DNA of 64,000 nucleotides from Chlamydoabsidia padenii (lineage: Eukaryota > Mucoromycota > Mucoromycetes > Mucorales > Cunninghamellaceae): contig JAIWND010000016.1 in assembly GCA_025330725.1 (NCBI GenBank), positions 310,001 to 374,000 on the forward strand, given 5' to 3'. Under the pieces are notes generated by a model. The model saw only the letters and a list, made by a program, of their open reading frames with translations, was not told the origin of the DNA and made no database searches. Below, piece by piece: positions 7,955-63,204 of this stretch (positions are counted from its first letter, which is position 1; every line of letters begins with the position of its first letter). The translations under genes and the position numbers were made by a program.

Positions 7955-8616
7955 GACGTTTGTTGATTTATATGGGTCAAAGTGAGAAAGGGAAAGAAAA
8001 CAAAAATAAAAATAAAATTCAACTGGTCAGCCCGGCGGCGATTAAAAAAAAGAGAGAGAGAGAGAGAGGATGCCGAAACTATAAAAAAAAAAAAATAGAG
8101 GGGTTAAATTTTTGCTCCTGTTCTATTCATTTACTTTAGCACTGCTTATATATATATGATTGTCGAGATACTAATGCATCGGCTTCATGATAGTCAGTGG
8201 GGCTAAGATTCTGAACAGCGGAGCCACGTGTTCGGGGCTTCAAATTGGTTTCCCTGATCAAGTAGCAGTAAAAGCAGATAAAAGATGTAAGGCATGGCGG
8301 GGGGTTGTTTTTTTTTTTCAAAAAAAGAACATTTGTTGAAGATTGTATAATGATTGTGATGGGGTATTCTGTTCTCACTACTTTTAAAAGGTAAACTTAA
8401 CGACTTGGGCTCTATAATGAGCAGTTTGATAATTCTAACTCCGACTTATATCCCCTTTATTTGAACTTTTTTTTGATTTTAAACCTTTTCTCGTCTTTCT
8501 TCCCAAGCCCCGTCTCTATTTATTCTTCCTCTTTTTATATCTAAAGAATCCCTTTCCATTCCTTTTGCTACTCTTATTCCACCTTTTAATCTTATAACCA
8601 TCCACACCCACCAACA
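7955..8616. promoter_or_regulatory. Divergent upstream region, Emi1-like (-) / flippase (+)
   Basis: 662 bp between two divergent starts. It contains (AG)n at about 8051-8069, A13 near 8081, a CGGCGGCGATTAAA segment at 8033-8046, and a C/T-rich stretch at 8465-8590 leading to the CACCAACAATGG start context of the flippase. No gene seen. Confidence 0.5.
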
Positions 8617-11600
8617 ATGGCTCGAAAGCTTCTGCCTAAAGGAAAGACAAAGACAAAAAGTGCTTTCCCCACCGCTTCAACCGAACGAAGAACCATCTAC
8701 GTCAACATGGATATGCCGCCTGACGAATTAGACGACTATGGTCAACCTACTCGTAGCTTCATTGGCAACAAAATTCGAACAGCAAAATATACTTGGTACA
8801 CCTTTTTACCCAAAAACTTGTTTGAACAGTTTAGAGGGATTGCCAACCTTTACTTTTTATTCCTGGTCATCCTTCAAATGTTCCCTCTATTCAGCACTTC
8901 GGCATCACCCATCCTGGTCATTTTACCTTTGGCTGCCATTCTCATTCTTACTGGTGTCAAGGATGCTTTGGAAGACAATAAACGACATAAAACGGATCAA
9001 GGTGTAAACAAGGCTACCACTTGGACCTTATCTGGTTGGACAAATGTCAATATTCCTATTTATAAAGTGGCTCGTTGGCGGCGATGGATTCATGCTACCC
9101 GATCTTGGCTTAAATCACTCTTGAATCCATTTCGGCGGCGTGACAACCATTTCGACGGCGATGATTACGACAATAGTAACGACGATCATCAGCATTCTCT
9201 CAACCGTGAACGAACGAACCAGTCCATCATATCTTCAACTCCTACCATACAAATCCCACAACCAACATCACCCATCTCTTCTCTTCGACAGACTATTCGA
9301 TCCAGCACCACATCATTCAGTCGTGTCTTCCAACGAAACCAACCTTATCGACCGGGACTAGTGCCACATTCAGTGTTGCGGAAAAAGAAGAACAAGAACA
9401 AGAAAACACAGAAATCTCCTCCACCAACCAAGAAGAAACGACATGAAATGGATCGACGATGGAAACGGACTCTATGGCAAGATCTACAAGTGGGTGATTT
9501 TGTCTTTTTACGAGATGATGATCCTGTACCTGCTGATATGGTGGTACTCTCGACGTCGGAGATTGATGGTTTATGCTATGTGGAAACTCAGAACTTGGAT
9601 GGTGAAACGAATCTCAAGATCAAACATGGACTACAAGCAACAAGTGATATCAATCGACCTGAAGACTGCGATGGATCTAGTTTTTATATAGAAAGTGAAC
9701 CTCCTCATGCCAATCTCTACTCTTATAATGGTGTACTCAAATGGAAAATATCAAGCATGGATCAGATTGACGAAGAAGACGAAGATGACGATGAAGATGA
9801 CGATAGTAGCAACAAGAATGATGGAGTCTCACTAAAACCACCAGACAACAACTATTCAGCAACTAGTCAACAACAACAACAATCTATAAATGATGTCTCT
9901 CATGAAAAGACCGAAGCAATCACCAGTAGCAGTGTCCTTTTGCGTGGTTGTGTCTTGCGAAACACAGATTGGGTTATTGGCTTGGTCTTATTTACTGGGA
10001 ATGAAACCAAAATCATGTTAAACTCTGGAAAAACGCCAAGCAAGCGTAGTAAAATGGAGAAGGCGACAAATCCTCACGTAAGTTGGAACATTTGTAGTAC
10101 AAACTAAATATATGTACTAGTTACTAACCGCACAGTTTCCCTTTTTTCTCTTTTTAGGTCATAGCCAATTTTATCCTACTATTTGTTTTATGCTTGATAT
10201 GCTCTATTGCCGCAAGTGTTGTTTACTCAAGCCACACCTCCTCGACTTACTTTGAACGCCCGGATGCTGAAAGCGCTGCTATGGAAGGCTTCCTCACATT
10301 TTGGTAAGTTGTCAAAAAACATCCCTTGTTATGAAAATCATGCTTGGTACTAACTTTTTATTTTTTATTTTTTTATGTCAATTTAGGACTACTCTTGTCA
10401 TTTATCAAAACATTATTCCCATCTCACTGTATATATCCGTCCAGATAGTGAAAACTGCTGCTGTAAGTTACTCATTCACCCTAAATCGAACGGTCCTTTA
10501 CTGACCTCTTATATATAGGCATACTTTATTCATACCGACATCGATTTGTACAATGACCGACTTGATCAGCCATGTATACCGAAAACGTGGAATATATCTG
10601 ACGATCTCGGGCAGATCGAATACATCTTCTCTGACAAGACTGGTACTCTGACTCAAAACATTATGGAATTCCGAAGATGTACGATCAATGGTGTTATTTA
10701 TGGACTTGGTGAAACTGAAGCTTCTGTTGGTGCCCAACTTCGCGATCAAGTGGATACTGATGGGTATGAAGAAATGGGCGAAGAAACAACACGTATATCT
10801 GATCATTTGGACCTCGAGAAAGCCAGGCGGGACATGTTACGGAAACAAGCATCTCTCTTTGAACATCACTATATCAACACAAAATCATCTTTTGTCGATC
10901 CCAAGCTATACGATGATTTGGCTCGAAACGACATACAATCTCAATCGGTGGTCCACTTTTTTTCTGCCTTGGCATTATGTCATACTGTCATTGCCGAAGT
11001 GCCTGACCCTGATAAACCCTATGAAATTGTATACAAGGCACAATCTCCTGACGAAGCAGCATTGGTGGCAACAGCAAGAGATGTCGGGTTTACTTTTGTC
11101 GCCCGTGAACAAGATACGATGATTATGGATGCTATGGGTGAGCGACGGGAAATGACGCTATTACACGTCTTGGAATTCAATTCGACTCGAAAACGGATGA
11201 GTGTTATCATGCGTGGTGGTGATGGACGTGTGGTGCTAATCTGCAAAGGTGCCGACTCTGTAATCTATGAACGACTGGATATGGATCCTGGTAATGTGAC
11301 ACTGGAACAACAACTCATGCGGAACAATACGTTGAAGGATCTGGCAACATTTGCGAACGAAGGCTTACGGACTCTCTGTATTGCAAGTCGGGTATTGGAC
11401 GAAGATGAATATCAGGATTGGGCTGCGCGATATAAAGAAGCTTCCAACAGCATTCACAACCGGGAAGAACAAATGGAAAACGTATGTGAAGACATTGAGC
11501 AACACTTGACTCTTATTGGCGGTACTGCTATTGAAGACAAACTACAAGAAGGTGTACCTGATACGATTGCTGTGTTGGCCAAGGCTGGAATCAAAATCTG

Positions 11601-13613
11601 GGTGCTGACAGGGGACAAGATTGAAACTGCGATCAATATTGGGTTTGCCTGTAATCTTCTGACCAAGGACATGCTACTTTTAAGTGTCAATGCTCGGGAT
11701 GAACAAGAAACTCTGGAACAGCTGCGAAACTCTCAAAATCAAGTGGATCACGTCTCGGGAAATCAAAAATGTGCATTGGTTATTGATGGTGAATCTTTAA
11801 AGTTTGCATTGGAGGCGCCTGCCCGAGAAGAACTACTCCGATTGGGTACACAATGCATGGCGGTGGTGTGCTGTCGTGTCAGTCCTATGCAAAAGGCCAA
11901 GGTGGTGAATCTTGTCAAGAAGGGTCTCAAGGTGATGACACTCTCTATTGGTGATGGCGCAAATGATGTCTCGATGATTCAAGAAGCTAATGTTGGGGTG
12001 GGGATCTCTGGAGAAGAAGGACGTCAAGCTGTGATGGCTTCTGATTATGCCATTGCTCAATTCCGGTACCTCAGCAAACTTCTTCTGGTGCATGGTCGTT
12101 GGTCTTACTTGCGTACCTCGGAAATGATTTTGACCTTTTTTTACAAGAACATCATGTGGACATTGGTATTGTTTTGGTATCAAATCTTTTGTGGGTAAGT
12201 TGTAGAATAAAATGGGGCTGGCGGGGATTTGAATGTGTCTTAACGCCGTGTTTTATCTCTTTTAGATTCTCGGGTACAATGATGTTTGATTACTCATATA
12301 TTACATTGTATAATCTGGTATTTACATCTCTCCCCTGTATCTTTGCTGGTGTATTGGATCAAGATCTTAAAGCCGAATACTCATTCAAGTTTCCACAATT
12401 GTATCTTATGGGTATCCGCAACGACAAGTTTAAACGATCAAGATTTTATTTGACGGTGTTTGATGCTATCTATCAGTCAGCCATCTGCTTCGGTGTGCCT
12501 TATCTTATCTTTATTGGTGGAAAGATGAGCAGATCTGGATACGACACAGAAGGCGTCTACGAACTCGGGACTTTTATTGCGGGTATTGCGGTGATTATTG
12601 CTAATGCATTGGTGGGCTTTACTATCTTTAGCTGGACTTGGGTGATGGTGCTGGTTATAGTCATATCTTCGGCAACTTTTTTTATCTGGACTGGTATTTA
12701 TGCTCAAATCATGACCTTTACATTCTATGGCGAAGACATACTCTTTCGGGAAGGTGCGTTTTGGCTCTGCTTGATTATCACCTTTGCAATATGTATGCTA
12801 CCTCGTTTCATTACCAAATACTATCTGCACATGGAACGACCCTTTGACAATGACATTATCCGGGAAATTGTTCTTTGCAACAAGAACAATTCTAATGACA
12901 TCGAACAACGTCCTCACACAAACTTTTCACCCTGGGAAAGTTTGAAACACAAGACACATCAAGGTAAAACACTGGTTGAACTGGAGGAAGAAATGCCCAT
13001 CACTCTGGTACGAACACAAAGCGATCTATCACGCCAAGACAACCTTCAGTCAATCCAACAAGATACAACAACAACAATAACAACAACACAAGACGAGACA
13101 ATGATCAACACAATGACGGAGGCAGAATACCACAATGTGTATGTACCAACCGAACCCACACCAGCTCATCCACGTATCGATCGATCGGGCACAGGCACCT
13201 CTGGCAAAAGTGAAATCATGTACATGCGATCTGGGAAACGGGCATCATTCACCGGGTTTGCCTATTCATCGGATGATGCGTCTGCCTTTGATGCACATAG
13301 GAAATCTGTCTATCGGGTTCGGCGACGAAGTAGTGGATCTGATCAACGACACCGGCTACGCAACTCTTATGTTGACACTGTACTAACTCCTCCGAATCAA
13401 GAATCACCATCACATGGCGGTAAAGAACAAGACTGGATGCCTTTGGATGGATTCAAGCTACGACGATACGAAACTGAACCTGATCCTCACCAATTGACAA
13501 AAAAGGCTGCACCAAGCTTACATTGGGTCCGCGCCGTTAAACAACGTATGGCCACTTCGACTTCTCGGCCTTCTGTCTCTGATGATCATGAATTGGTGGA
13601 TATCTCTCATTAG
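8617..13613 (+). CDS. P4-ATPase phospholipid flippase (Dnf/Drs2 group)
   Basis: Aminophospholipid-translocating ATPase of about 1568 residues that moves phospholipids from the outer/lumenal to the cytosolic leaflet. Exons: 8617-10077, 10158-10303, 10387-10462, 10519-12194, 12266-13613. Seen in order: the N-terminal FEQFRGIANLYFL of TM1-2; actuator motif DGET at ~328-331; the PISL motif of TM4 (IIPISLYIS), diagnostic of P4-ATPases; phosphorylation site DKTGT with D600; KGAD with nucleotide-site Lys ~804; hinge TGDKIETA; and GDGANDV at ~1039-1045, followed by the C-terminal membrane block. The RTIYVN start resembles yeast Dnf1/2 more than Drs2. A ~130-residue basic, Ser-rich insertion lies between TM2 and the actuator domain, and a long Asp/Glu and Gln-rich loop follows DGET. 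A CDC50-type beta-subunit would be expected elsewhere in the genome. Confidence 0.95.
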
Positions 13614-18220: not shown

Positions 18221-19645
18221 ATTATAGATCCAAGAACTGGATCCATTTGATCTTAGTCCTACTCGCCTGTTTACGTGGGATGAAATCAATCCTAAATTCA
18301 AGGGGTACAGCTCATGTCCTAATGGCCAATTCGATTCTCAAACTGGTGAATATATCAACTTTACTATGGAGGTGGGATACCAATCGTCACAATACCACTT
18401 CTTCTCCATCTCTGATCGTGATCCTCAAGGTACTGTTATTGCCACTCTCAATGCTCCTACTGCGTATGTCAACAGCTTCTCGATTACACCCAAATATATC
18501 GTTTTTGTAAGTAACTTATGAAAATAGTGAAATATAATAATTGTTATTGTAATCCTTCCTCTTTTCTCTCTCATCTGTAGGCGCTCTTTCCTATGATTGC
18601 TAACACTAGTGGTATGAAATTCTCTTGGAACGAAAGCATCTTGGATTCATTCAACTTTGCACCCAACGAATCTACCCTGATTTATGTGATCTCTCGGGAA
18701 AAGCGAATGGTTTCGGCGGTCTTCCAAACAACATCCTGTTTTGCTTTCCATCATGTCAACGCCTTTGAAGATGTTACACAACGTGGCAACAATGTTTACC
18801 TGGATATGATCTGTTACTCCGATGACACCATTGCTCATCAACTAACCACAGGCTCTCTTCGACATCCTGACACAATGCGTCCGTCTCGATTGGCTGCTTC
18901 CGAAGTCCGACGCTATGCTCTTATCAACATTGAAGAAGAACATTTGGCTTACCTTGCCAATCAATCCTCTCTTCCTGGCCGTGGTAGTAACAAGAATAAC
19001 ACAGGCGGTATCTCGGGTCGATTCAGTACAGTGTTTGGCAACATGCTTCGCAATACCAAAAAACAATCTATTCCCGATGCAGCAACTACAGCATCTTCTG
19101 GTGATAATTCCGCCTATGCCTGGATGCCACTTGCGTCATATGAATTACTGGTCCAACCTTCCTTGGAATTACCTCAGATCAATCCCGATTACAATATGAA
19201 TAATTACAAGTATATGTACAGTCTTGGATTCTCTGCTGCAACTTCAATCATGGATGGTCAAATATGGGATAGTATTGTGAAAACGGTAAGGTCATTAACT
19301 CTACTAACATGGTAGTACCTGAACTCATATTGAACTTTTCAGGATGTCAGCAAAAAAGCCATAGTCGCATCTTGGCATCAAGAACATTGTTATCCCAGTG
19401 AAGCAGTGTTTATTCCTCGCCCAAGAACAACACCGAGTGACAATAAACATCAAGGCGATAATTATCTGGAACAACAACTTCAAGAAGATGACGGTGTATT
19501 GGTCAGTGTGGTAATGGACTCGGCACGTGCAACATCCTTCTTACTGATTCTGGATGCAATTACCCTTCATGTACTGGCTACGTCGGATCTTGGCACTTTG
19601 GTTCCCATCAGCTTTGCTCATGGTACATATAGACTTCGTCACTAA
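16881..19645 (+). CDS. Carotenoid (apocarotenoid) cleavage oxygenase
   Basis: Non-haem iron dioxygenase of about 802 residues that cleaves carotenoid or apocarotenoid double bonds. Exons 16881-17519, 17595-17788, 17859-18147, 18228-18506, 18581-19285, 19343-19645. The first ~210 residues are acidic, Ser/Thr/Asp-rich and look disordered. The catalytic domain starts at QLPDWLTGEHYTIGPGIYDV and contains HASSYFTFGHWFDT, the iron-ligand block FHHVNAFED (His ~524-525), and the C-terminal VPISFAHGTYR, whose His is the usual last ligand. Sequence alone cannot separate CarS-like, AcaA-like or Tsp3-like roles of the mucoralean beta-carotene-to-trisporate route; membership of that group is inference from fungal lineage and length. 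Intron 3 has a (CT)n tract at 18183-18216. Confidence 0.88.
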
Positions 19646-19989: not shown

Positions 19990-20300
19990 CCCTTTGCCTT
20001 GAATCTTGGGAGAGCTCTACTGCTTCAATGGACAAGTGATGCTCTTGACAAAAGTGACCATGAGCATTCCTTAGCCTATTTCCAACAAACTTTATATAAT
20101 GGCCAATGTACCAAGTCTCTTGTATGGAGCAATACAACCTCACGATCTTGAGGCAATACTGGTCCATACAGTGGACTTGGTATATTGACCATTATATAAA
20201 GTTTGTTGAAAATAGACTAATGAATGCTCATGGTCACTTTTGTCATTAGCATCACTTGTTCATTGAGATAATAGAGCTCTCTTGAGATTCCAGGCGAGAG
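19990..20300. repeat. Fold-back element, family A copy 1
   Basis: Near-perfect inverted repeat with almost no loop: the left arm (about 19995-20140) is the reverse complement of the right arm (about 20150-20298). Shared landmarks are AGAGCTCTA, CAATGGACAAGTGATGCT / AGCATCACTTGTTCATTG, GTGACCATGAGCATT, AACAAACTTTATATAATGG and CCAAGTC...TGTATGG. A transcript would fold into a ~145-bp hairpin. Confidence 0.8.
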
Positions 20301-20392
20301 TAAGCGGTTTTTGAAATAAGTTTGGTCTTGTGTGTCAATTTTTCATTCTGCCACTTTTTTTTTACAAGTCAGGGTAAAACAATCTTGAGGCT

Positions 20393-20870
20393 ATACTGCT
20401 CCATACAGTGGATTTAGTATATTGACCATTATATAAAGTTTGTTGGAAATAGGCTATAATGTCTACATCGCCACTTTAATCATTAGCATCCGTGGACAAT
20501 TGGAGCAAATAGAGCTCGTACCAAAATCCCATGCGCCTGGCAATTCCCCAATAGAGATCAAATCATGTTCCAGACTAAAAGTAAAGAACTATAAGAATGG
20601 ATTTGATGTGGATTCTTCCAATACCATTTGGAGACATCCCTGAAAGGGGACGGTTTCACTTTTTTCACGTCTTCCCTTGTGGACCGTTTCCGCAAAGAGC
20701 GGGTTTCAAACCCCGCACACCCTATGATTCCTTGTAAGAGCTCTACCGTCTCAATGGACAATGGATGCTCATCAATAAATGGGCCATGAGCATTGCTTAG
20801 CCTATTTACAACAAACTTTATATAGAACACCAAGCGCCAAGTTCCTTGTATGGAGCTGTACAGGCTTGCA
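20393..20870. mobile_element. TIR element (MITE-like), family A copy 2
   Basis: About 480 bp. The left end GGCTATACTGCTCCATACAG...CCATTATATAAAGTTTGTT is answered at the right end by AACAAACTTTATATAGAAC...TTGTATGGAGCTGTACAG. The unique centre (GCCTGGCAATTCCCCAATAG; GGGGACGGTTTCACTTTTTT; GCGGGTTTCAAACCCCGC) is shared with the copy at 29555-30015. No transposase ORF, so non-autonomous. Confidence 0.75.
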
Positions 20871-24536
<3,666 letters not shown>

Positions 24537-25205
24537 TTCTTCACGTTTATGCAAAAAAATCATTTTCAACTCCCGACATTTTCAAAGCAGCTGCTGTCAC
24601 TTTTTATCCCGCTTTTTGTACTTCCTTGTTATCATCATTATAAAGAAGATAAAGTTTACAAGGACGTTTCGAATATGCATTGAGGACACTGTTGATTAAT
24701 GAATGCCTAATGCTAACTATATTTGAAACATTGACACAAAGGAAGAGAAAGGCATCCATCTTGTTTATTTGTTCTTTCAAGTGTAATTATGATGATGGAT
24801 TAATAAGATAGAAACGCCAAAAGTCCAAAATTAGTGATCCGATATAAACAACCTTCCTGATCTTTTTTTTTTATTTGTCTGGACTTCGTTTTCGGAACCA
24901 GACCTTTTTATGCAGAAGTGATTTTCAAATCCCGCCACCCGTCATGCAACTACTGCCACTTTTTATCCTTTTTTTTGTAGTTCTTTGTTATCAAAAGAGA
25001 AGTACGTAAATGAGCGCTGTTGTTTTATATATTTATATATATATAAGAGGGGCTTTACGAGGGTGTTTAGAATAGAGGATGGAAACGCGCGAACGTCGTC
25101 GGTGATTCAATACATAATAACAACACCACATGAAATATTGACACAAAAGGAGAGAAAAACATCCTTTCTTTGTTTATTTGCTCTTTCACGAGTAATTATG
25201 ACGAC
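24537..25205. repeat. Diverged tandem duplication, two ~300-bp copies
   Basis: Copy 1 (about 24537-24815) and copy 2 (about 24890-25205) share, in the same order: TTTATGCA followed by a CAA.TCCCG element; GCTGTCACTTTTTATCC / TACTGCCACTTTTTATCC; TTGTTATC; and ATTGACACAAA..GAGAAA..CATCC..TTGTTTATTTG.TCTTTCA. Each copy carries one promoter-like TTCAAATCCCG variant and no credible ORF. Confidence 0.7.
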
Positions 25206-25408
25206 GAAAAACTAAGAGAGGAACTCCCTCTCCCCCAAAGTTAGTATGGGAAAAAGATAAGAAAGGTCCAAAAGTAGGAACCATCCAATTAAACAACCAA
25301 CGCGTGGTTCCATCAGATTTTGTTTTTATTTTCCAAATCCTTCCATCGATAAAAAAAAAAAAAAAAAAAAAAAAGAAAGCAAAAGGAAAGGAGGGAAAAA
25401 TCGCCAGT

Positions 25409-25432
25409 CGGGATTTCAAATGTCTATAAAAG
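25409..25432 (+). promoter_or_regulatory. Promoter of the repeat-exon gene: CGGGATTTCAAA plus TATA box
   Basis: CGGGATTTCAAA at 25409-25420 is followed by TATAAAAG at 25425-25432, about 110-130 bp upstream of the ATG at 25542. A long C/T-rich tract (25440-25490) lies between, as at other start sites in this window. Confidence 0.6.
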
Positions 25433-25541
25433 AGGTCCAATTTTCCTTTTCCCTTTTCTTTTTTTCTTTCTCTTTCTCTTTCTCATTCTCACAAACACAA
25501 ACAAACACACTATTCTTTTTCTGCAATATACAATTCCCAAT

Positions 25542-26366
25542 ATGTCTCAAAACAGTAAGTCAACTCATACCAATGTTTTTACCCTATGTTGGTTTTGACA
25601 CTTTTTAACTTTTTGTTTATAGTGAAGCGACAAAATACTTTTATGGAAATACCTGATGATGAACCTGAACGCATCCCAAAGAAACGCAAACAGCTTACTG
25701 CTGACGAGGTTGAACCTGCCCCCACTTCTGGTACAGTGTCCCCGTTTACCTGTAAGTCAACCCAAAGCAATGTACTTTTTTTTTTTTTTTTTCTAACATC
25801 TTTTTACTCCTGGTTTATAGTGAAGCGACAAAACACTTTTCTGGAACCCCATGATGAACCTGAACATATCCCGAAGGAAATCAAACAGCTTACTGCTGAC
25901 AAGGTTGAACCTGCCCCCACTTCTGGCACAGTGTCTCAGTTTACCTGTAAGTCAACTTGAAGCAATGTACTTTTTTTTTTTTTTTTTTTTTCTAACATCT
26001 TTTTACTCCTGGTTTATAGTGAAGCGACAAAACACTTTTCTGGAACCCCATGATGAACCTGAACATATCCCGAAGGAAATCAAACAGCTTACTGCTGACA
26101 AGGTTGAACCTGCCCCCACTTCTGGCACAGTGTCTCAGTTTACCTGTAAGTCAACTTGAAGCAATGTACTTTTTTTTTTTTTTTTTTTTTCTAACATCTT
26201 TTTACTCCTGGTTTATAGTGAAGCGACAAAACACTTTTCTGGAACCCCATGATGAACCTGAACATATCCCGAAGGAAATCAAACAGCTTACTGCTGACAA
26301 GGTTGAACCTGCCCCCACTTCTGGCACAGTGTCTCCGTTTACCTGTAAGTCAACTTGAAGCAATGC

Positions 26367-26416
<50 letters not shown>

Positions 26417-28601
26417 CTTTTTACTCCTGGTTTATAGTGAAGCGACAAAACACTTTTCTGGAACCCCATGATGAACCTGAACACATCCCGAAGGAAATCA
26501 AACAGCTTACTGCTGACAAGGTTGAACCTGCCCCCACTTCTGGCACAGTGTCTCAGTTTACCTGTAAGTCAACTTGAAGCAATGTACTTTTTTTTTTTTT
26601 TTTTTTTCTAACATCTTTTTACTCCTGGTTTATAGTGAAGCGACAAAACACTTTTCTGGAACCCCATGATGAACCTGAACATATCCCGAAGGAAATCAAA
26701 CAGCTTACTGCTGACAAGGTTGAACCTGCCCCCACTTCTGGCACAGGGTCTCAGTTTACCTGTAAGTCAACTTGAAGCAATGTACTTTTTTTTTTTTTTT
26801 TTTTTTTTTTCCTAACATCTTTTTACTCCTGGTTTATAGTGAAGCGACAAAACACTTTTCTGGAACCCCATGATGAACCTGAACATATCCCGAAGGAAAT
26901 CAAACAGCTTACTGCTGACAAGGTTGAACCTGCCCCCACTTCTGGCATAGTGTCTCAGTTTACCTGTAAGTCAACCCAAAGCAATGTACTTTTTTTTTTC
27001 TAACATCTTTTCACTCCTGGTTTATAGTGAAGCGACAAAACACTTTTCTGGAACCACATGATGATGAACCTGAACACATCCCAAAGAAAATCAAACAGCT
27101 TACTGCTGATAAGGTTGAACCTGCCCCCACTTCTGGCACAGGGTCTCAGTTTAGCTGTAAGTCAACCCAAAGCAATGCACTTTTTCTTTTTTTTTTTCTC
27201 ACACCTTTTTACTCCTGATTTATAGTGAAGCGACAAAACACTTTTTTGGAACCACACGATGATGAACCTGGACACATCCGGAAGAAAGGAAAACCACTTT
27301 CCGCATTTGCCACCCATTATTGTATGACTTCTGAAATTCTGGCTAACTCCAATATCGATAGGGATCCTTCCTCCGTTTCTGATATGGTTTCTGCTTCCAC
27401 TTCTGATATGGTGTCTTCCTCTACTTCTGATATGGTGTCTTCCTCCACTCCTGGTGTGGTTTCTGCTTCCACTTCTGATATGGCATCTGCTTCCACTTCT
27501 GATATGGCATCTGCTTCCACTCCTGATATGGCATCTGCTTCCACTTCTGATATGGTGTCTTCCTCCACTTCTGATATGTTGTCTTCCTCCACTCCTGGAG
27601 TGGTTTCTGCTTCCACTCCTGATATGGTATCTGCTTCCACTTCTGATATGGTGTCTTCCTCCACTCCTGGAGTGGTTTCTGCTTCCACTCCTGGTGTGGT
27701 GTCTTCCTCTACTTCTGATATGGCATCTGCTTCCACTTCTGATATGGTGTCTTCCTCCACTCCTGGAGTGGTTTCTGCTTCCACTCCTGGTGTGGTGTCT
27801 TCCTCTACTTCTGATATGGCATCTACCTCCACTTCTGATATGGTGTCTTCCTCCACTCCTGGAGTGGTTTCTGCTTCCACTCCTGGTGTGGTGTCTTCCT
27901 CTACTTCTGATATGGCATCTACCTCCACTCCTGATATGGCATCTGCTTCCACTTCTGATATGGTGTCTTCCTCCACTTCTGATATGTTGTCTTCCTCCAC
28001 TCCTGGAGTGGTTTCTGCTTCCACTCCTGGTGTGGTGTCTTCCTCTACTTCTGATATGGTGTCTTCCTCTACTTCTGATATGGCATCTGCTTCCACTTCT
28101 GATATGGTTTCTGCTTCCACTCCTGGTGTGGTGTCTTCCTCTACTTCTGATATGGCATCTGCTTCCACTTCTGATATGGTTTCTGCTTCCACTCCTGGTG
28201 TGGTGTCTTCCTCTACTTCTGATATGGCATCTACCTCCACTCCTGATATGGCATCTGTTTCCACTTCTGATATGGTGTCTTCCTCCACTTCTGATATGTT
28301 GTCTTCCTCCACTCCTGGAGTGGTTTCTGCTTCCACTCCTGGTGTGGTGTCTTCCTCTACTTCTGATATGGCATCTACCTCCACTCCTGATATGGCATCT
28401 GTTTCCACTTCTGATATGGTGTCTTCCTCCACTTCTGATATGTTGTCTTCCTCCACTTGTGATATGGTATCTTTCTCTACTCCTGATATGGTGTCTTCCT
28501 CTACTCCTGGTGTGGTTTCTGCTTCCACTCCTGGTGTGGTTTCTGCCTCCACTTCTGATATGGTGGCATCTGAAAAGCAGATTCCTCTAATTAGGCCCTA
28601 A
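25542..28601 (+). CDS. Tandem-exon repeat protein with octapeptide minisatellite tail
   Basis: No known family recognised. Model of about 800 residues: leader exon 25542-25554 (MSQN), then eight homologous exons 25623-25751, 25821-25946, 26020-26145, 26219-26344, 26438-26563, 26636-26761, 26840-26965 and 27028-27156, then a last exon 27226-28601. Internal exons are 126 or 129 nt, all phase 1-1, so any number can be joined or skipped without frame loss. Each codes for a ~42-residue unit like KRQNTFLEPHDEPEHIPKE. The introns between them are also near-identical (GTAAGTCAACTTGAAGCAATGTAC, a T tract of variable length, CTCCTGGTTTATAG). The last exon starts with a half-unit, then has 49 full octads of the type SDMVSSST or PGVVSAST. 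Unit 1 carries PKKRKQ, a basic nuclear-localisation-like motif. No signal peptide or membrane segment. Confidence 0.7.
25555..27225 (+). repeat. Tandem exon-intron modules (~195-220 bp, 8 copies)
   Basis: Each module is one symmetric exon plus one intron with retained GT and AG. Inner modules (25821-26965) are nearly identical in exon and intron. The terminal modules (25623 and 27028) differ: an extra GAT codon, and KKRKQ/KKIKQ instead of KEIKQ. Intron lengths range from 62 to 93 bp and vary mainly by the T tract (about 9 to over 40 T). Confidence 0.9.
27378..28577 (+). repeat. Coding 24-bp minisatellite, ~50 units
   Basis: In-frame 24-bp units alternate between TCTGATATG-type (SDM) and CCTGGTGTG/CCTGGAGTG-type (PGV) cores, joined by TCTTCC/TCTGCT and TCCACT. 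I count 49 full octapeptides and one degenerate last unit. Higher-order blocks of several units recur, for example PGVVSAST-PGVVSSST-SDMAS(T/A)ST. Confidence 0.95.
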
Positions 28602-29000
28602 ATAGGCTCAAGGGATATACATAGGCAAATGAACCGATCATAGTTGATTTATATAGAATTATAGTCTCACATAATAAATAGGTTTTTTATATATCCATCC
28701 AATAAAATAGGCCCTAAATAGGTGTTTTATATAGACAAACAATTTAATAGGGGTTTTATTTAAACAGCCAAGTTAATGGGTCTTTTATAACAAAGTCGAA
28801 TGTAACGTGAAAAATAGGGATTTTAGTTAAAAGCGTTTGATTTTACTGATGTGCTATACAAATATGGGAATACTATACTATGTTCAAGCTATACTAATCA
28901 TCTAACCTAGCAATCTCTCAAGACAATCATGTCTATGCATGGAGTTTCAACTATAAAGCTTCATGCTACTCGTATTATGCTATAGCATGATGGAAATACT

Positions 29001-29043
<43 letters not shown>

Positions 29044-29057
29044 AGTCAGGTTCAAAC
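28602..29057. other. 3' flank of the repeat-exon gene
   Basis: AT-rich. TAGGCCCTAAATAGG at the stop codon (28593-28607) recurs near 28708-28722, and ATAGGGGTTTTAT-like words recur near 28680, 28724 and 28748. A T31 run lies around 29008-29038. No gene seen. Confidence 0.5.
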
Positions 29058-29470
29058 GATCTTGAGGCTATACTGATCCATACAAGGTACTTGGTATATT
29101 GGCCATTAAGTAAAGTTTGTTGGAAATAGGCTATAATGTCTACATCGCCACTTTTGTCATTAGCATCACTTGTTCATTAAGCTAGTAAAGCACTCCCAAG
29201 ATTCAAGGCGAGAGTAAGCGGGTTTTGAAATAAGTTTTATCTTGTGTGTCAATTTTCATTCTCCAACTTTTTTTTTTTTTTTTTTACAAAAGTCAAGGTA
29301 AAACAATCTTGAGGCTATACTGCTCCATACAGTGGACTTGGTATATTGACCATTATGTACAGTTTGTTGGAAATAGACTATAATGTCTACATCGCCACTT
29401 TTGTCATTAGCATCACTTGTTCATTAAGTCAGTAGAGCCTTTCCAAATTTTAGTAGAGGCAGGCGGGATC
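29058..29470. repeat. Family A arms, copies 3 and 4 in direct orientation
   Basis: Two solo arms, about 29058-29230 and 29306-29470. Each reads GAGGCTATACTG.TCCATACA...TTGGTATATTG.CCATTA...AGTTTGTTGGAAATAG.CTATAATGTCTACATCGCCACTTTTGTCATTAGCATCACTTGTTCATTAAG. They are separated by a T-rich run. Confidence 0.75.
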
Positions 29471-29554
29471 TAAAAAAGTACGAAAAGGAACCAGACTTTT
29501 TTTTTTTTTTTTTCTTGCAAAGGACTGGTAAAAGTCATCGCAAGTCTGAACTGA

Positions 29555-30018
29555 CCGGCACAAGGGTCTTGCTACATTGGTCATTATGTAAACTTTGTTG
29601 GAAATAGACTATAATGTCCATATCGCCACTTTAATCATTAGCATCCGTGGACAATTGGAGGGAGTAGAGCTCTTACCAAAATCCCGTACGCCTGGCAATT
29701 CCCCAATAGAGATCGAATCATGTTCCGGGCCAAAAGTAAAGAACTATCAGAATGGATTTGATATGGATCCTTCCAATATCATTTGGAGACATCCCTGAAA
29801 GGGGACGGTTTCACTTTTTTCATGTTTTCCCTTGTGGACCGTTTCCGCAAAGAGCGGGTTTCAAACCCCCCTTACCCTATGATTCCTTGTAAGAGCTATA
29901 CCTTCTCAATGGACAATGGATGTTCATCAATAAATGGGCCATGTGCATTCCTTAGTCTAATTCTAACAAACTTTACATAATGGCCAATGTACCAAGTCCC
30001 TTGTATGGAGCTGCACGT
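29555..30018. mobile_element. TIR element (MITE-like), family A copy 5
   Basis: About 460 bp, same orientation and same unique centre as the element at 20393-20870 (CGCCTGGCAATTCCCCAATAG; GGGGACGGTTTCACTTTTTT; GACCGTTTCCGCAAAGAGCG). Ends are inverted: GGTCATTATGTAAACTTTGTTGGAAATAG against CTAATTCTAACAAACTTTACATAATGG. Confidence 0.75.
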
Positions 30019-36943: not shown

Positions 36944-37741
36944 TATAGAAGGACAACACTTTACAGCATAGTACTAGTTTAGTTATTACCGTTATCCCAC
37001 ATCATTTATTAAAATAAATAAAGGATTGATCCATCATCATGTTGTATCTATTTGGCGTGTGTGTTTAGTTTGTATTGGGTGATGATGAACATGGGTGAAC
37101 AATGTGGGTTGCACAAAAAAAGACGGGTAGATCACATATTTATGCAACAAGTCAAATTTACAAGCATATTTTAAACATGCTTCTACTAAAAGAGGTATCT
37201 ATGATATATTTATGTACGTATATGGTTTGTATACCTTACAGGATATGCTTTGCTTGCATGTATGTATATGTTTTATTTGGTTTATTGTATTACTTTTTTT
37301 TTTTTTTCTTTACCCTCTACCATCACCCCGTGTTTTTTTTTTTTTTTTTTTTTAATTTTGAAGGCATATAACTGATAGTAGCATAGATTGGATTTCTAAC
37401 AGGTATAGATTATAACAGACCTATCTATTCTTGAAAGGAGATTACAAGTAATGTCAGGTTTTTTTCTGTTTTACAAATTATAAGGGGGAGGCAAGGGGAG
37501 AAAAAAAAGACCAATAAGTTTGGTTAGGGAGTTGCCTTTTGGCGACACAAGCTCTCTCCCCTTGGTTTCCCCCCTAACAAAAAAGCGGCACAAACGAGGG
37601 GGGATGTCGGCGTTTAAAATATAGAGAAGATAAAAATAATCTGGGGGGGGGAACGCATTTCTTTTTCTTCTCTTTCCTTTTCTTTCCACTTTTTTTTCTC
37701 TTTCTTTTACCTTGTATGTGTATATCTTTCTAATAATAATC
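36944..37741. other. Intergenic: HDAC 3' flank and kinase promoter
   Basis: AAAATAAATAAAG at 37010-37022 is a likely poly(A) signal for the HDAC gene. T runs lie at about 37291-37309 and 37334-37353. TCGGCGTTTAAAAT at 37607-37620 is a promoter-element variant ~125 bp upstream of the kinase ATG, followed by a C/T-rich tract. Confidence 0.5.
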
Positions 37742-39202
37742 ATGCCTTCGAAAACCCTTACTCAATTAAACCCTTCCTCTTTACTCAACACAACCATTGA
37801 TCATGGACGTATTCAACTGAAATCGATTCTTGGTGTGGGGGCTTATGGTATTGTGTATCTCGGTCAACATCTCCTAAACCAACGTCAATATGCTGTCAAG
37901 CTACTCACCAACACCAAAGTCAGTAAAAGTGAAATCGCCATCCATTCACACCTCAGTGACCATCCCAACATTTTGTCATTTGATAAAGTCGTCCAACACC
38001 AAGGCAGGACATTTATCTTGCTAGAATATGCTCCTCAGGGCGATCTGTTTGCTTCGATCACACATCCGACTCGTGGGCTGGTGGGGAACAATGAAGCGAT
38101 CAAGTATATCTTTTTACAAATCTTGGAGGCGGTAGATTATTGTCATCAACGCGGGGTGGCGCATCGTGATCTCAAGCCGGAAAATATCCTCATGTTTCCC
38201 AATTGGAAAGTCAAGTTGGCTGATTTTGGACTGGCGACCTGTCAATCGGTGTCAGCTGAATTTGGTTGTGGGTCCACTTTTTACTTCTCTCCAGGTAAAA
38301 TACAATTCATGCATACTGGCTTTTTTTTTTTTTTCTAGTCGGACTGACTTTTTTTTTTTTCTTTTGTACTCGTAGAATGCCAAAGTGGTATGATTCGAAA
38401 TCACCAACGCATTAAAGGATACAGTACTCAACAAAACGATATTTGGAGTCTTGGTGTCATCCTCATCAACTTTGCCACCGGACGAAATCCATGGAAGCAA
38501 GCCAACATGCAAGATCCTACTTTTGCTGCCTATGTACAAAAACCAAAACACTTTTTCAGGCGTATTCTACCTGGCATCTCGGATGAATTGGATCGTATAT
38601 TGGGCCGTATCTTTTGCTTGGATCCTGCATTGCGAATCTCTCTACCTGAATTGAAATTCCGAATATTGAAATGTCAATCCTTCACTCGACAGGCATCCTC
38701 CTCTCTTCCACCCACGCCAATAGAACAAGATACTATCGATCGATCTTATTGCATGACACCACCACCACCACCGGCGGGAATGAAATGGTCGGGATCAATG
38801 GCGGAAACCATGTTGGCTTATATTCAAGGCTACACTGATGAATCTCCTAAACAATCACTTACTCCTTGTCATCATCCTTCACCCATTATTACCACTGCCA
38901 TTAAAAGTAATCCAAAGCAATACCAATCACCCCTGGAACAGCCACAAGAAGGACGTACACATCACCATCATTATCAACAAGACTATTCGTTGATGCATCT
39001 GTCTCATTCAAATACAACAACATTGAATGCGCCTTGCGACTCCTTGTCATCAAGCTCCTCATTGTCCTCTTCTGAATACTCCTCGGCCCTGGCCACTCCA
39101 GATGGGTCCAATCCTCCACAATCAGTCTTATCCTCCATGAACTTTAGCAAGCACAGGCAACAAAATGGATTGGTCTTTGGTCATCTTACTCACTATGCTT
39201 AG
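37742..39202 (+). CDS. Ran1/Pat1-type Ser/Thr protein kinase
   Basis: Protein kinase of about 459 residues; exons 37742-38294 and 38376-39202. Kinase landmarks: GVGAYGIVYLG loop, AVKLL Lys, HRDLKPENIL catalytic loop, ADFGLA, and the activation segment ending CGSTFYFSPE with the Glu completed by the splice join, then the DIWSLGVILINFATGRNPW helix. The STFYFSPEC block and compact size are typical of the fungal Ran1/Pat1 (S. pombe meiosis-repressing kinase), Sks1/Vhs1 group; related members act in nutrient or developmental control. Residues ~310-459 are Ser/Pro/His-rich and unstructured. The in-frame codon at 37712 is TTG, so ATG 37742 is preferred. Confidence 0.9.
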
Positions 39203-54582: not shown

Positions 54583-57500
54583 TCAAGTGGAATGCGTTGA
54601 TGCCAGTTTCTTTAAACAATCCACAACATCCGTACTTGATCGCACATGCCAATTCGCCATTGTTTTCTTTTCAGGTGACCCTACGGTGATAGAATACAAT
54701 GCCATGTCTGACCAAGTGGTAAGTACCGGTGTTGTTTTCCGGGCAAGTGGTGGGGGTCGTGTGTCTTGTGCAGATTCCTTCTTTTGGGCATGGTACGCCG
54801 AGCTGAGCATCCTAAACATGTCTTCGTCCGTCTTGTCATCCCCAGCACAAACAACGAGATCTGCATCGGCATGTTGAGATAAGATCCGTTTGACGATTTC
54901 ACCCTTGTTGATGGACATTGGACGGACTTCCAAATTTTTCTTGCCCACGAGGATCTCCACAGGTAGCTTCGAGACAATGGCATGTTCTAGATGGTTTTGA
55001 CATTCTTTGGCTTGAAATTCACTATATAAAAAAAGAAGAAATTGAGTTATCATTCATGAATGTATAGTGTTCTCCTTTCTTTTCATACCCAAAAGTCGCA
55101 TCTGCTTGTCGATAATGCCATGTGATGGATGATTTCTTGTTTTCAACAAAAGAGCCTTGAGTACGTTCGGTGTAGTAAGCAAAGATTTCAGCCACATCTT
55201 GTTTCCAGGACATATCCATATCATCGACAATACTTGACCATGTTTGACCATTAGGGGGTTTGAGATAACATCCATGTTCAGCAGAGAAACCGAGTCCCTT
55301 GACACTACCGAGCCATCCGTCAAGTGTTTGTTGATCCCTACCAGAAATAACCCAGACAATGTTACGAGGATCATCACACAGTGTTTGTAAGCAAGTCAGT
55401 AGGTCAGGTGATGGTTTTGCATCGCCAGGAATGGATACAATGGGAGTCAATGTACCCTAATAAGGTTTATAAGTTGGATGAATGGATTCATTACACATTT
55501 CACCAGTTTACTTACATCATAATCAAAAAACAAGAGTCGTTTTTTGGATCCAAGATAAGTGTTCACCAAAGAGTTAAGATCCAGGGCAGGTGTCGCATGG
55601 GATTGAAGTGATTGTTGTTCGCTAATACTGACCAATTGAGTGACAAAAGAATGAGCCCAAAAGGAAGCAGTATGCCTTGTAACATGTTTGTAAAGTTGCT
55701 AAAAAAAAAAGAGAGAGAGAGATAAAATTAAATATCATGACTAGTAAATAAAGACTGATCCATCTACTTACTTTGTGTCTTGTTAATTTGTCTTCAGGAG
55801 ACATCTTGAGTGCATCATTAATAGCCTTGGCCACTTCAGAGTAATCCCAGGGGTTGACGAGCATGGCAGCAGACAGAGAACCAGCAGTACCAGCAAATTC
55901 GGACAAGATGAGAGGACTGTGGTTTTGTTCATGCTGACAAATGATGAATTCAAAAGAAGTGGTGTTCATGCCATCACGAATACAAGTGATCAAACCAACG
56001 TCGGCAACAGAGAGTAGTGCATAATATTCATCCCGATCGACATCTTGATGATAATAGTGGACAGGGGTGAATTCCAAAGAGCCAAAAGTACTGTTGATAT
56101 GACTGACGGCTTCAGAGACCTTGGACTCCAATTTGGCATGATCCCCATAGGTAGGTGTCGCCACTTGAATCAATACCACCTTATTTCGCCATTCCGGATA
56201 CCGATGCAAGAATTGTTCAAACGCATGGAGTTTCTGTAGGACACCCTTTGTTGAATCGAGTTTGTCGCGTCCAATGATGATTTTCTTGCCCGCATACATA
56301 TCACGAATAGCCGCCATCTTGGGTTCCACACCAGGTTGTTTACAATAAGCATGTACTCGATCGCAGTCAATACCAATAGGGAAAGCACCCACCGCCACCA
56401 TTTGACCATTGTAGTTTACCCCCACCTGAGTTGATTCACATCCAAGTACTCGAGTACATGAAGAAATAAAGTGTCGAGCATAGGAATAAGTCTATTTCGA
56501 TAATAAATCAATTAATGAAAGAAAGATGATATAGTATACAATGAGAATGAAACCAGTTATTGTTTGCTTTACCTGGAAGCCAACCAAAGTACTACCCAAC
56601 ATACCACGTAGAATATCATTACGAGTAGTAAGACATCGAAGGATTTCAGAACTAGGCATGGTTGCATGGAAAAACAGACCAATGACGGCATTTGGGAGTT
56701 TAGCACGGATCATTTCAGATACAAGTAAAAGATGATAATCATGGATACAAACTATATTTTTAAAACAGAAATGCATGAGTTCACCATTCCTTCCTACACC
56801 CATATCCATATTACTTACTGATATCCCCTTCTTGATAGTTAGCGATGATGGTATCAGCAAATTGTTGATTCACCGCAACATAATCCGCCCAGAATTGTTT
56901 TTCAGACCGACCATCCGTAGCATGTTCCCCCACAATATAATGGAATAAAGGCCAAAGGACTAGAGAGAGGGGAAAAAAAAAAAAAAAAAAAGTTGGATCA
57001 CCCCCTTTTGTTTCCCATCTATTTTATTTTACTTTACTTTACTTACCCTCTTTACAATAACCTTCATAATGACCATGAGATTCCTTCTCCAAAAAGATGG
57101 GAATAATACGATCCGTATCCCATAAGAGTTTTTCCAACCTGGCTTTATCTTCAGGGAAAATCTGTCGTACGTCTTGTTTGGTACCCTTGACACGGATCGG
57201 ACCCGTCCAGCCGATATGGATAGTTTCATAGTTCTTGGCCAAGCTCTGTACACCGGAATAGAGAGCGGCATGACCACGACGTTGCACCACTGTCCAATCA
57301 GCCGCATGGAATTTGACACGCAAAGTATGACCCCGTTGATGATGTCGTGCCAGTTTGGAAACAGGAGCAGCCGCTACAGGGTCTTGTTTAGGAATGGCCG
57401 CGGACAATTGACGGCGACGACTACCAGGTGGTGATAGAGGTGGTGATGAAGGAATGACTTGAGGTCGTTGATCATGAGACTTTAGAATGTTGTATGGAAT

Positions 57501-60251: not shown

Positions 60252-63204
60252 CTATACTGCAGAGAATAATCGTATTACCAGATATAAAAAAGATCCCAAG
60301 AACCGAAAGACAGTCAGACCAGCATTTGTCCACGACACCACCGCCATATAAGTTGTTCCGGGAGAGGAGTGGAACAAGGAAGTATAGTCGGTCGAAGTCA
60401 CCACTACCACCAAGACAGTATTACAAGTAACCCACAAAAGTAACAGATAGGTACGGAATGATCTGTAGTAGTCTTCCAAAGATATCGTCTTTTGCTATAG
60501 AACGATGATAATCAGTCTTAGCTTGATCATGCATTCACCTTTCTTGTTTTACCTTTTGCTTTTTATCATTGGGGGACACCAATGCATGAAGAGCTGCTTC
60601 ATAGTCGAGGTTAATATCAAATTCATCGGCCGGTAATTCGAGTTCCACCGTACGATCCATTTCCGTCCTTTTCACAACCCCTAAATCACTGTCCATGCTA
60701 TTATCACCTTTGGTACCCCAACTAGTTTGCCATGGGGATAGATTAAAAGAGATAAAGAGGTTAATACATACATGTTGTTGCTATTTATCTACCTTGTGAT
60801 ACTTTACCTAACATCGTGTGTATTGCAAAAAGAGTAAATGGTGAGGACATTGACATAACATGGCATAAGTAAGAGGTAGGGAAAGAAGCTGGTAATCATA
60901 GGAATAGGGTCAAAATACAATAGACTGGCCACAAAGTAGAGTCCATAGGTAACTGCTAAAGATATAATCAAGTTACGTTGTTGTTCCCCTAATCCATCAC
61001 TACCCACTTGTCCCATGACTTGATATATTTGCCATATTGTGCCGAATAACATGTAAGCCATGATGAGAGCAAACCCAATGACACACAAATAAAAGAGACC
61101 TTTGGCACTATATATATATATATATAGGTAAGTAGTTATAGTTATGATTACATTTGTCTTACCCTTGTGGTCGATTGCCAATGGATGAGATAAACAAAAC
61201 AGTAATCAAGAATAGATAAAAGAATTGGAAAAAGTCGAATAATCGTAATCCCCAACCATTACCAAATGGATCAACTGATGGATCCGCCAGTCCTTTAGTG
61301 ATAAAGTAAAACGCAATATAAAAGTTACCCTATTATAATAACGAGTTAGTTCATAAACCTTTCCCTCCCCCGTATGTAATGTATACACTTACCAAAGCTA
61401 ACCAACTAAACCCAATGTTGATGATATTATAAAAGGCTTGAATAGAGAGCAATATAATTCTTGACCAAGAATGTCGACTACGACAAGGAATCATATAAAA
61501 ATGCCAAAGACTGTGAATGGCAGCAAAGAAGCTTCCATTGATCCACCGACGTCGTTGCGAGATGAATTCCTCCAATTGATGTGGTACATCGGTTTCAGCA
61601 AAAGCAGTTTTGACATAATGAAGTAACCATCGTTCGTGCCTTTTCGCCACCAGTTCAAAACACAAGATGCGATCTTCGGCCAGGTACATATTGCGTTCGA
61701 ATAAACCAGAGCCTTGGGTCGAGAAGTAACTGGCGAGTGGTCCTTGTTGGTTCACGTCGTTTTGAAGGGCCGAGTAGCGATAAGCAGAGAATGCGCCTGG
61801 CAGCACTGAGATGTATCCAAATACTGTTTCAAATGGTTTATCAAGGATATTGGACATCTAGAGAAGAGAAGGGATTAGTAGTCTTGTTTAAAACTGAAAA
61901 TAAAACTTGCTTACCTTGTATTCAAAGTTTTGAGCTGCCACCAATGGATGAAGGACTTGATGATTCAAAGTGCCCAGCATTGCTCTTATTTCCCCACAAG
62001 CACCAGCCACATGAGGAAGTCGATCAAATGCTTTCCACAATTCGTAAATAGAAGTATTACCTGGTCTAGTTGCAATTAAAAAGAGTGGTATGTGAGTCAA
62101 GTAGTCTGGGTCTTTGTTCATTCCTCTTCTTTTTTTTTTTTTTTTACCTAGTTCCTGCATCAAGTAAAACACAAATGCTTGGTTGAAGAATACGACCAAA
62201 AGCATTGAAGCACCAGCGATGAGAATCGATTTTCTTTGCGTTTTTTTCTTTAATGCATAGTAGGATTTGAACAGGCACGATTCCCTATTTTTTACAATGA
62301 AGATGACAAGATGAATGACCTGCTACCTTTTTTTTTTTGTGTGTGTGTTTTGTATACCAAACTTACCTTATCGGCCCCTTTTATGTTCATGTCACCATCA
62401 ATAGAGATTTGTGTCGTATACTATCGGAAAAGAAGAAAAGAGGGAAACATTTGAACATCGCACTTTTTTTGTTTCCCGACGGCGTTTGAATGATGAAAGG
62501 GGGGTTTACCTCGTACACATGTGCCTGAACTGGTACCTGATCCACTTGATTCTTAGCCACCCCAGGCTGGTACACTCCCATGGAAGCAAGAATATGAAGA
62601 ATACGAGGATGGATGACTTTACGACCATCGGCGACAATAGTCACCACCACCTTTTGCCATGCCTGTTCATGCCATGTGGAGGATTGTTTTAAACTGCATA
62701 AATGGGCAATGTTCTTCATCACCCCATGTAAAGTGCGCGCAAATAAAATATGATCTTCCTAAATCATAAAATAAGCACTTGATATTTTTTTTTTAAAAAA
62801 AATGGGTTTTTTTTCTGTTTCCTTACATTGTACAAGGTGATGATAATCATCAACTCGGTCTGTCGGTGATTCAATTGTTGTCGAAGCGTATATCCATGCT
62901 CAGCGAACTCATCGGCCGCACAACACACAGCTGTATATCGCATGGTTTTGAATTCTGGCTCGGTATTGATGGGGATGGCTTCTAATAATCTGTCAGCCAC
63001 TCTGCTTTCGAGGACAAGATGACCACGTCGGGTTAATTGGATGCGTCGAGTTACTTGTCGCCGTAGTGAAAGGCTGGGTCGGGGAGAGGAAGGGTCTTTT
63101 TTATCATCATCTACCGCCATAGTTGGAAAAACCATCTTGGCTAGCCATGATGTCCAATGGGTGTCGTTTGGAGTGTCTTTTTGGTTTCTAGGTGTATCGG
63201 GCAT
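60252..63204 (-). CDS. chs: Chitin synthase, division 1 (GT2)
   Basis: Plasma-membrane enzyme polymerising UDP-GlcNAc into chitin; about 770 residues. Exons 63204-62827, 62758-62510, 62420-62367, 62284-62148, 62065-61915, 61857-61393, 61329-61163, 61107-60808, 60721-60553, 60494-60252. Seen: family entry block [23 protein letters not shown], then LAEDRIL (EDR ~384-386), the catalytic QRRRW (~424-428) followed by [11 protein letters not shown], the C-terminal membrane segments, and SWGTKGDN rebuilt by the splice join at 60808/60721. The absence of a myosin head and the EDR/QRRRW spacing fit class I/II. The N-terminus is short (~125 residues before the GT2 core) with no transmembrane segment. 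A strong promoter element was not seen within 200 bp upstream. Confidence 0.93.

Follow-up and report, generated by a model that had tools for sequence, protein, structure and literature searches.

An Eight-Module Exon-Intron Array in Chlamydoabsidia padenii Probably Descended from the N-Terminal Tail of RCC1 by Nested Tandem Amplification

Introduction

Expansion of intron-bearing repeats is already known in fungi: according to the available text of the source, Cryptococcus neoformans CNN00420 gained introns in this way (PMC2395259). Arrays of symmetric exons are also already known on a large scale in Tetrahymena, where the accessible portions of PMC6564038 describe LRR gene arrays built from 90-bp exons, with equal-length symmetric exons, near-uniform intron phase and exon numbers that vary between close paralogues. 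Recurrent exon duplication inside a chromatin-protein gene is described, in the part of the paper at hand, for grass CENP-C (PMC549713). The tail of RCC1, the Ran exchange factor, carries a bipartite nuclear localization signal (NLS) and a chromatin-binding region, as stated in the available sections of PMC5645467.

C. padenii is a mould of the order Mucorales. Here we analyze a gene in a 64,000-nucleotide stretch of its DNA (the window), which corresponds to C8:310001-374000 in the 34.2-Mb assembly of 95 contigs used for all own-genome comparisons. The window gene is like the RCC1 copy on C15 in its exon 1-intron 1-exon 2 layout, and also in the tail motif KR[QH][NH]T[DF], the paired basic clusters and the STPG.V segment that precedes the propeller; it differs in that the propeller is absent and the tail is present in nine copies, and it should not be called a Ran exchange factor. 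As in CNN00420, near-identical introns have multiplied together with the repeat (divergence 4.7% for exons and 5.7% for introns). As far as the available text on CNN00420 goes, gain was confirmed there by population resequencing, whereas here the source gene and the intermediates lie in one genome, module numbers of 1, 4 and 8 are found in paralogues of one assembly, and the parent domain has been lost. The Tetrahymena arrays, as described in the accessible portions, comprise thousands of genes of an old LRR family in phase 2; the window gene belongs to one small family in phase 1, with a tail without known fold. Grass CENP-C differs in duplicating exon pairs, in having few copies and in the positive selection reported in the portion available (PMC549713).

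The SP7-like effectors of arbuscular mycorrhizal fungi, as described in the available part of PMC11333574, share with the window gene hydrophilic repeats, an NLS and an intron before the first repeat, but carry a signal peptide, whereas the window N-terminus, MSQNMKRQNTF, is hydrophilic by eye. Their signature Y[KR]Rx[AP]x[AP] is absent from the window protein, whose single tyrosine (residue 374, in THYCMT) lies outside the eight modules; an SP7-like identity was accordingly rejected for the gene. Intron gain from proto-splice sites is, from the text seen of PMC2891723, a different route, and the wtf driver repeats are described in the available text of PMC9562144 as coding repeats within exons and were not used as a comparison. 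Within the accessible portions of the Cryptococcus and Tetrahymena papers, we did not find the present combination, in which the source gene is known, the intermediates sit in a single genome, repeats are nested at two scales and the parent domain has been lost. One paper collection yielded neither a paper on tandem duplication of RCC1 N-terminal exons in Mucorales nor one on the C. padenii genome.

Results

The spliced model of the window gene has 10 exons and 9 introns, starts at position 25542, remains open to 28601 and encodes 800 residues (Table 1). After a 13-nt exon 1 come eight exon+intron modules and then a last exon of 1376 nt; from module 1 to module 8 the exons measure 129 nt, 126 nt (six times) and 129 nt, phase 1-1 throughout. 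The nine introns are 62-93 nt long, with a T run of 10 to 43 in introns 2-9 and of at most 5 in intron 1. Their location rests on two end patterns, GTAAGTC and, ahead of TGAAGCGAC, TTTATAG; the presence of these ends in 9/9 therefore holds by construction. Independently of the gene model, Tandem Repeats Finder (TRF) reports a period of 199 with 8.3 copies over 25615-27284 (score 2085). The spliced model and TRF together confirm, at 25623-27156, the eight modules with phase 1-1 exons of 126 or 129 nt that an earlier note had described, and its claim about the frame holds: as all module exons are phase 1-1, the frame would survive any change in module number and the skipping of any exon. At its 5' end the last exon holds a ninth module copy, which has diverged; behind it lie 24-nt repeats numbering 48.9 copies by TRF and 46 units by motif count. 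At bases 12-14 of the introns that follow modules 2-6 (25947-26839) there is a TGA in frame (GTAAGTCAACTTGA), so that retention of these introns would end translation; if retained, those after modules 7 and 8 run into a later stop, and that after module 1 is read through without one.

Table 1. Positions of the array, its parts and neighboring genes in the window.
Feature	Position	Strand	Remarks
Phospholipid-translocating ATPase	8590-12198		Pfam
RPE65-like enzyme	18581-19315		Pfam
TATA-like box TATAAAAG	25425..25432	+	by eye
Exon 1, ATG TCT CAA AAC A	25542..25554	+	13 nt; phase-1 end
Intron 1, putative ancestral RCC1 intron	25555..25622	+	68 nt
Module 1 exon	25623..25751	+	129 nt; KR...KKRK, bipartite-NLS-like
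Module 1 intron	25752..25820	+	69 nt
Module 2	25821..26019	+	exon 25821-25946, intron 25947-26019
Module 3	26020..26218	+	exon 26020-26145, intron 26146-26218; identical to module 2
Module 4	26219..26437	+	exon 26219-26344, intron 26345-26437 with 43 T
Module 5	26438..26635	+	exon 26438-26563, intron 26564-26635
Module 6	26636..26839	+	exon 26636-26761, intron 26762-26839
Module 7	26840..27027	+	exon 26840-26965, intron 26966-27027
Module 8	27028..27225	+	exon 27028-27156 (129 nt), intron 27157-27225; corresponds to C10 module 4
Last exon	27226..28601	+	diverged module copy (ninth), then 24-nt repeats; TAA stop 28599-28601
24-nt tandem repeats	27379..28565	+	8 aa, e.g. STSDMVSS, STPGVVSA
Dispersed repeat where RCC1 body was	28567..28880	+	last residues and stop codon
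RCC1 propeller remnant	28910..28951	+	40/42 bases as in C8 copy
Protein kinase	37640-38338		Pfam
Glycosyltransferase 20	55622-56491		Pfam
Chitin synthase	61351-61857		Pfam

The earlier note could not match the array to a known family. This part was not borne out: by homology, the window gene is a duplicate of RCC1, and its array is the amplified N-terminal tail, as found in several RCC1 duplicates. When the genome was queried with the DNA of one module, all 18 matches fell in the window array, in C10, at C8:108 kb or, as weak hits, in C15. Both C15 (28.3-29.9 kb) and C1 (302.9-304.4 kb) carry a plain RCC1 gene, in which a short first exon and an intron in phase 1 precede the tail and then the propeller. 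The C8 copy (106,016-108,166) has one module, a diverged copy and about 18 short repeats, followed by the RCC1 body; after removal of introns positioned by homology it encodes 624 aa, and Pfam finds the propeller domain (PF25390, E 1.7e-119; PF00415, E 3.3e-86). The C10 copy (100,471-102,689), of four modules with 44 short repeats, encodes 620 aa and lacks the propeller. A fragment at C8:405-406 kb retains 21 short repeats, a 3' segment and RCC1 remnants, with neither promoter nor modules. One genome holds a series of no module (C1, C15), one (C8), four (C10) and eight (window). In the C15 and C8 copies, module-like sequence passes directly into the RCC1 body, and exon 1 measures 13 nt in the window, C10 and C8 and 16 nt in C15. 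Both the N-terminal exons and intron 1 of the window gene were found to derive from RCC1. We consider it highly probable that the gene descended from RCC1 and grew by nested tandem amplification in C. padenii.

The seven-bladed propeller is absent from the window gene: no RCC1 family was found at E 0.001 in the first 405 of the 800 residues, and the rest of the protein consists of short repeats. Matches of the same 405 residues to Pfam FlgT_C, ERbeta_N and CHASE3 were weak, all below the cut-offs, and were attributed to chance. Among the 120 relatives listed, 5 carry the tail motif, including Absidia repens and Mucor velutinosus. The order of duplication was not resolved by a tree of nine RCC1 proteins, which left 5 of 6 inner branches open, so dates rest on pairwise divergence. 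RCC1 proteins from the C. padenii assembly have been deposited in databases; the C15 and C8 models (P0001, P0007) begin at MVFVFG, leaving out exon 1 and the tail, and the C8 model is also without its module and short repeats.

The origin of the module can be read from its 3' end. An alignment of the C8 module's final 15 exon bases plus intron with exon 1 plus intron 1 of C15 scores 71 and begins at the TG of the start ATG; 0 of 500 dinucleotide shuffles reached this score (mean 24.5, best 51). At the position of that ATG the module reads GTG. The alternative that the module end is a run-on of exon 2 scored 26, a value reached by 73 of 500 shuffles, and was rejected. On these alignments, the module consists of the tail of exon 2, then a copy of exon 1 fused to it, then a copy of intron 1. 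Because copies of the same phase-1 intron flank each module on both sides, its phase symmetry is automatic. The 24-nt unit appears, by eye, to derive from the RCC1 segment just before the propeller, as it resembles C15 GCTTCCACTCCTGGTATGGTCTTT / ASTPGMVF.

From the copies, which are observed directly, we infer four steps and their order. Tandem duplication of exon 1 (from just inside the ATG), intron 1 and part of the exon 2 tail would have produced the first module, and the 24-nt segment preceding the propeller would then have been amplified. The locus would next have been duplicated, one branch losing most of the propeller and acquiring a new stop from a dispersed repeat. Finally, unequal exchange between near-identical modules would have raised their number to four (C10) and eight (window).

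Over the 28 pairs of window modules, mean divergence is that given above for exons and introns, the intron value being computed with T runs of six or more set to 6. Introns are as similar between modules as exons, as the earlier note had observed, and its view that whole exon+intron units were copied recently and repeatedly is borne out. Modules 2 and 3 are the same over 199 bases, exon and intron, including a T run of 21, and modules 2-6 differ from one another at no more than 2 of 126 exon sites. Such identity could arise if assembly had expanded or collapsed a near-identical array, but we consider an artefactual module number very improbable, because the remaining copies carry distinct T-run lengths and single changes and because a four-module array exists in C10 and a one-module copy in C8; the exact number of eight could still be off. 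In the module tree, window module 1 pairs with C10 module 1 (support 0.989) and window module 8 with C10 module 4 (0.896). This pairing, together with the near-identity of modules 2-6, suggests that growth from about four to eight modules probably came later than the split of window and C10, unless gene conversion evened the copies. The window differs from C10 at 24 of 1841 aligned sites over 23770-25820, with more differences farther upstream (93.2% identity over 22473-23711), and from C8 at 43 of 892 sites.

At the 3' end, the new stop codon of the window gene sits within the dispersed-repeat stretch. The query 28562-28905 gave 21 genome matches, three of which are the window, C10 and C8:405 kb; six matches cover nearly the full span at 71-73% identity, one reaches 96% over 237 bases, and the rest are partial. 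RCC1 remnants lie 3' of the repeats, as two pieces in C10 and at C8:405 kb and as 42 nt in the window; because they are common to these copies, the propeller was probably lost before the three split.

The region 5' of the gene is common to the window, C10 and C8 copies. A segmental duplication comprises window 20142-25541, C10:95308-100470 and C8:107827-116750, the C8 match being interrupted by about 4 kb. Sequence similar to portions of window 20142-22563 lies after the gene in C10 and after the fragment on C8 (C8:406-409 kb), which hints at a former head-to-tail arrangement of the duplicated segment. Repeats of about 240 bp with poly-T, dispersed and locally tandem, occur at 19996-20490 and 29021-29680, their copies flanking the duplicated segment on both sides; they have at least 164 genome matches (40 of 501 candidates scored). 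A Pfam search for neighboring genes covered 8 of the 27 long frames in the window and gave no match for 2 of them. In the window, Rfam gave no match at gathering scores and ARAGORN no tRNA.

To what extent the gene is constrained was assessed by comparing window and C8 over exon 1, the first module and the non-repeat part of the last exon. We observed 2 synonymous differences over 66.8 sites and 14 nonsynonymous differences over 236.2 (tested against neutrality, two-sided p 0.55), so that, on few sites, no purifying selection was detected. Differences number 16/303 in coding sequence and 25/540 upstream (three bins, 24847-25399), with 9/200 in the bin that holds exon 1 and the 5' leader; divergence of the tail is close to that of the upstream DNA. 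In contrast, the RCC1 bodies are constrained, with nonsynonymous/synonymous ratios of 0.132 (C8-C15), 0.072 (C8-C1) and 0.065 (C15-C1), while the young tail copies are not detectably constrained on these few sites. The older comparison, between the C15 and C8 tails, gives a ratio of 0.483, and the older tail may have been under some constraint. Between modules, the ratio is 0.204 for 2 versus 8, on seven differences, and 0.793 for 1 versus 8.

A stop would arise from 11 of 3591 single changes within the 24-nt repeats and from 14 of 378 in a module; the open frame is weak evidence in the repeats, where stops arise so rarely, and better evidence in the module. Openness alone was set aside as evidence, as one other plus-strand frame in the 24-nt repeat region is also stop-free and long minus-strand frames exist; the reading frame is fixed by homology to RCC1, not by openness.

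Discussion

Judging from sequence, transcription and splicing of the window gene stand at near even odds. A pseudogene of the same RCC1 origin, unexpressed or untranslated, with modules and short repeats growing by unequal exchange in dead DNA, is a serious possibility, which we rate a little short of even; the estimate concerns expression and use and is compatible with descent from RCC1. The lost propeller points this way, as do the neutrality-compatible tail differences, the similar coding and upstream divergence from C8, and the related C8:405 kb fragment without promoter or modules. Consistent with it as well, a deposited protein was found by neither window-protein search, whether at E 0.001 among the 8000 candidates of 440-1400 aa sharing most words or at E 1 among the 8000 of about 213-679 aa. 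Against a pseudogene stand the intact start codon and frame, the intact splice-site pairs, of which pattern search gave 9 in the window and 5 in C10, and the kept upstream region, but the recency of the copying accounts for much of this intactness.

If the gene is expressed, expression would start from the inherited upstream region, and we propose that the gene evolves with little or no detectable constraint. Its product, if made, would probably be nuclear and, by composition, disordered, keeping the nuclear-import signal of module 1; it presumably could not act on Ran, since nucleotide exchange is not expected of a protein without the propeller. The second basic cluster reads KKRK in module 1 (with KR), KKIK in module 8, KKGK in the ninth copy and KEIK in modules 2-7. 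It is missing in 6 of the 9 module copies, indicating that the amplified variant is one without it.

Symmetric exons would permit a repeat protein under selection and with variable splicing, its function tuned by the number of modules or the choice of exons; the paralogues with four and eight modules and the low ratio between modules 2 and 8, on seven differences, fit such a protein. We consider this reading unlikely, however, since the symmetry already follows from copying of one intron and constraint was not detected between window and C8. In Drosophila, the basis of Segregation Distorter is a truncated duplicate of RanGAP. By analogy, tail-only nuclear-targeted repeat proteins might disturb the Ran/importin system in a dominant-negative or selfish manner, with module number setting the strength, an idea that we regard as extremely improbable.

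Under descent from RCC1 by nested amplification, the copies in one genome would show where the breakpoint lies, why phase symmetry arises automatically, how introns multiplied by tandem duplication and how the parent domain was lost. The near-identical tandem exons would also offer a clean place to ask whether all of them get spliced in.
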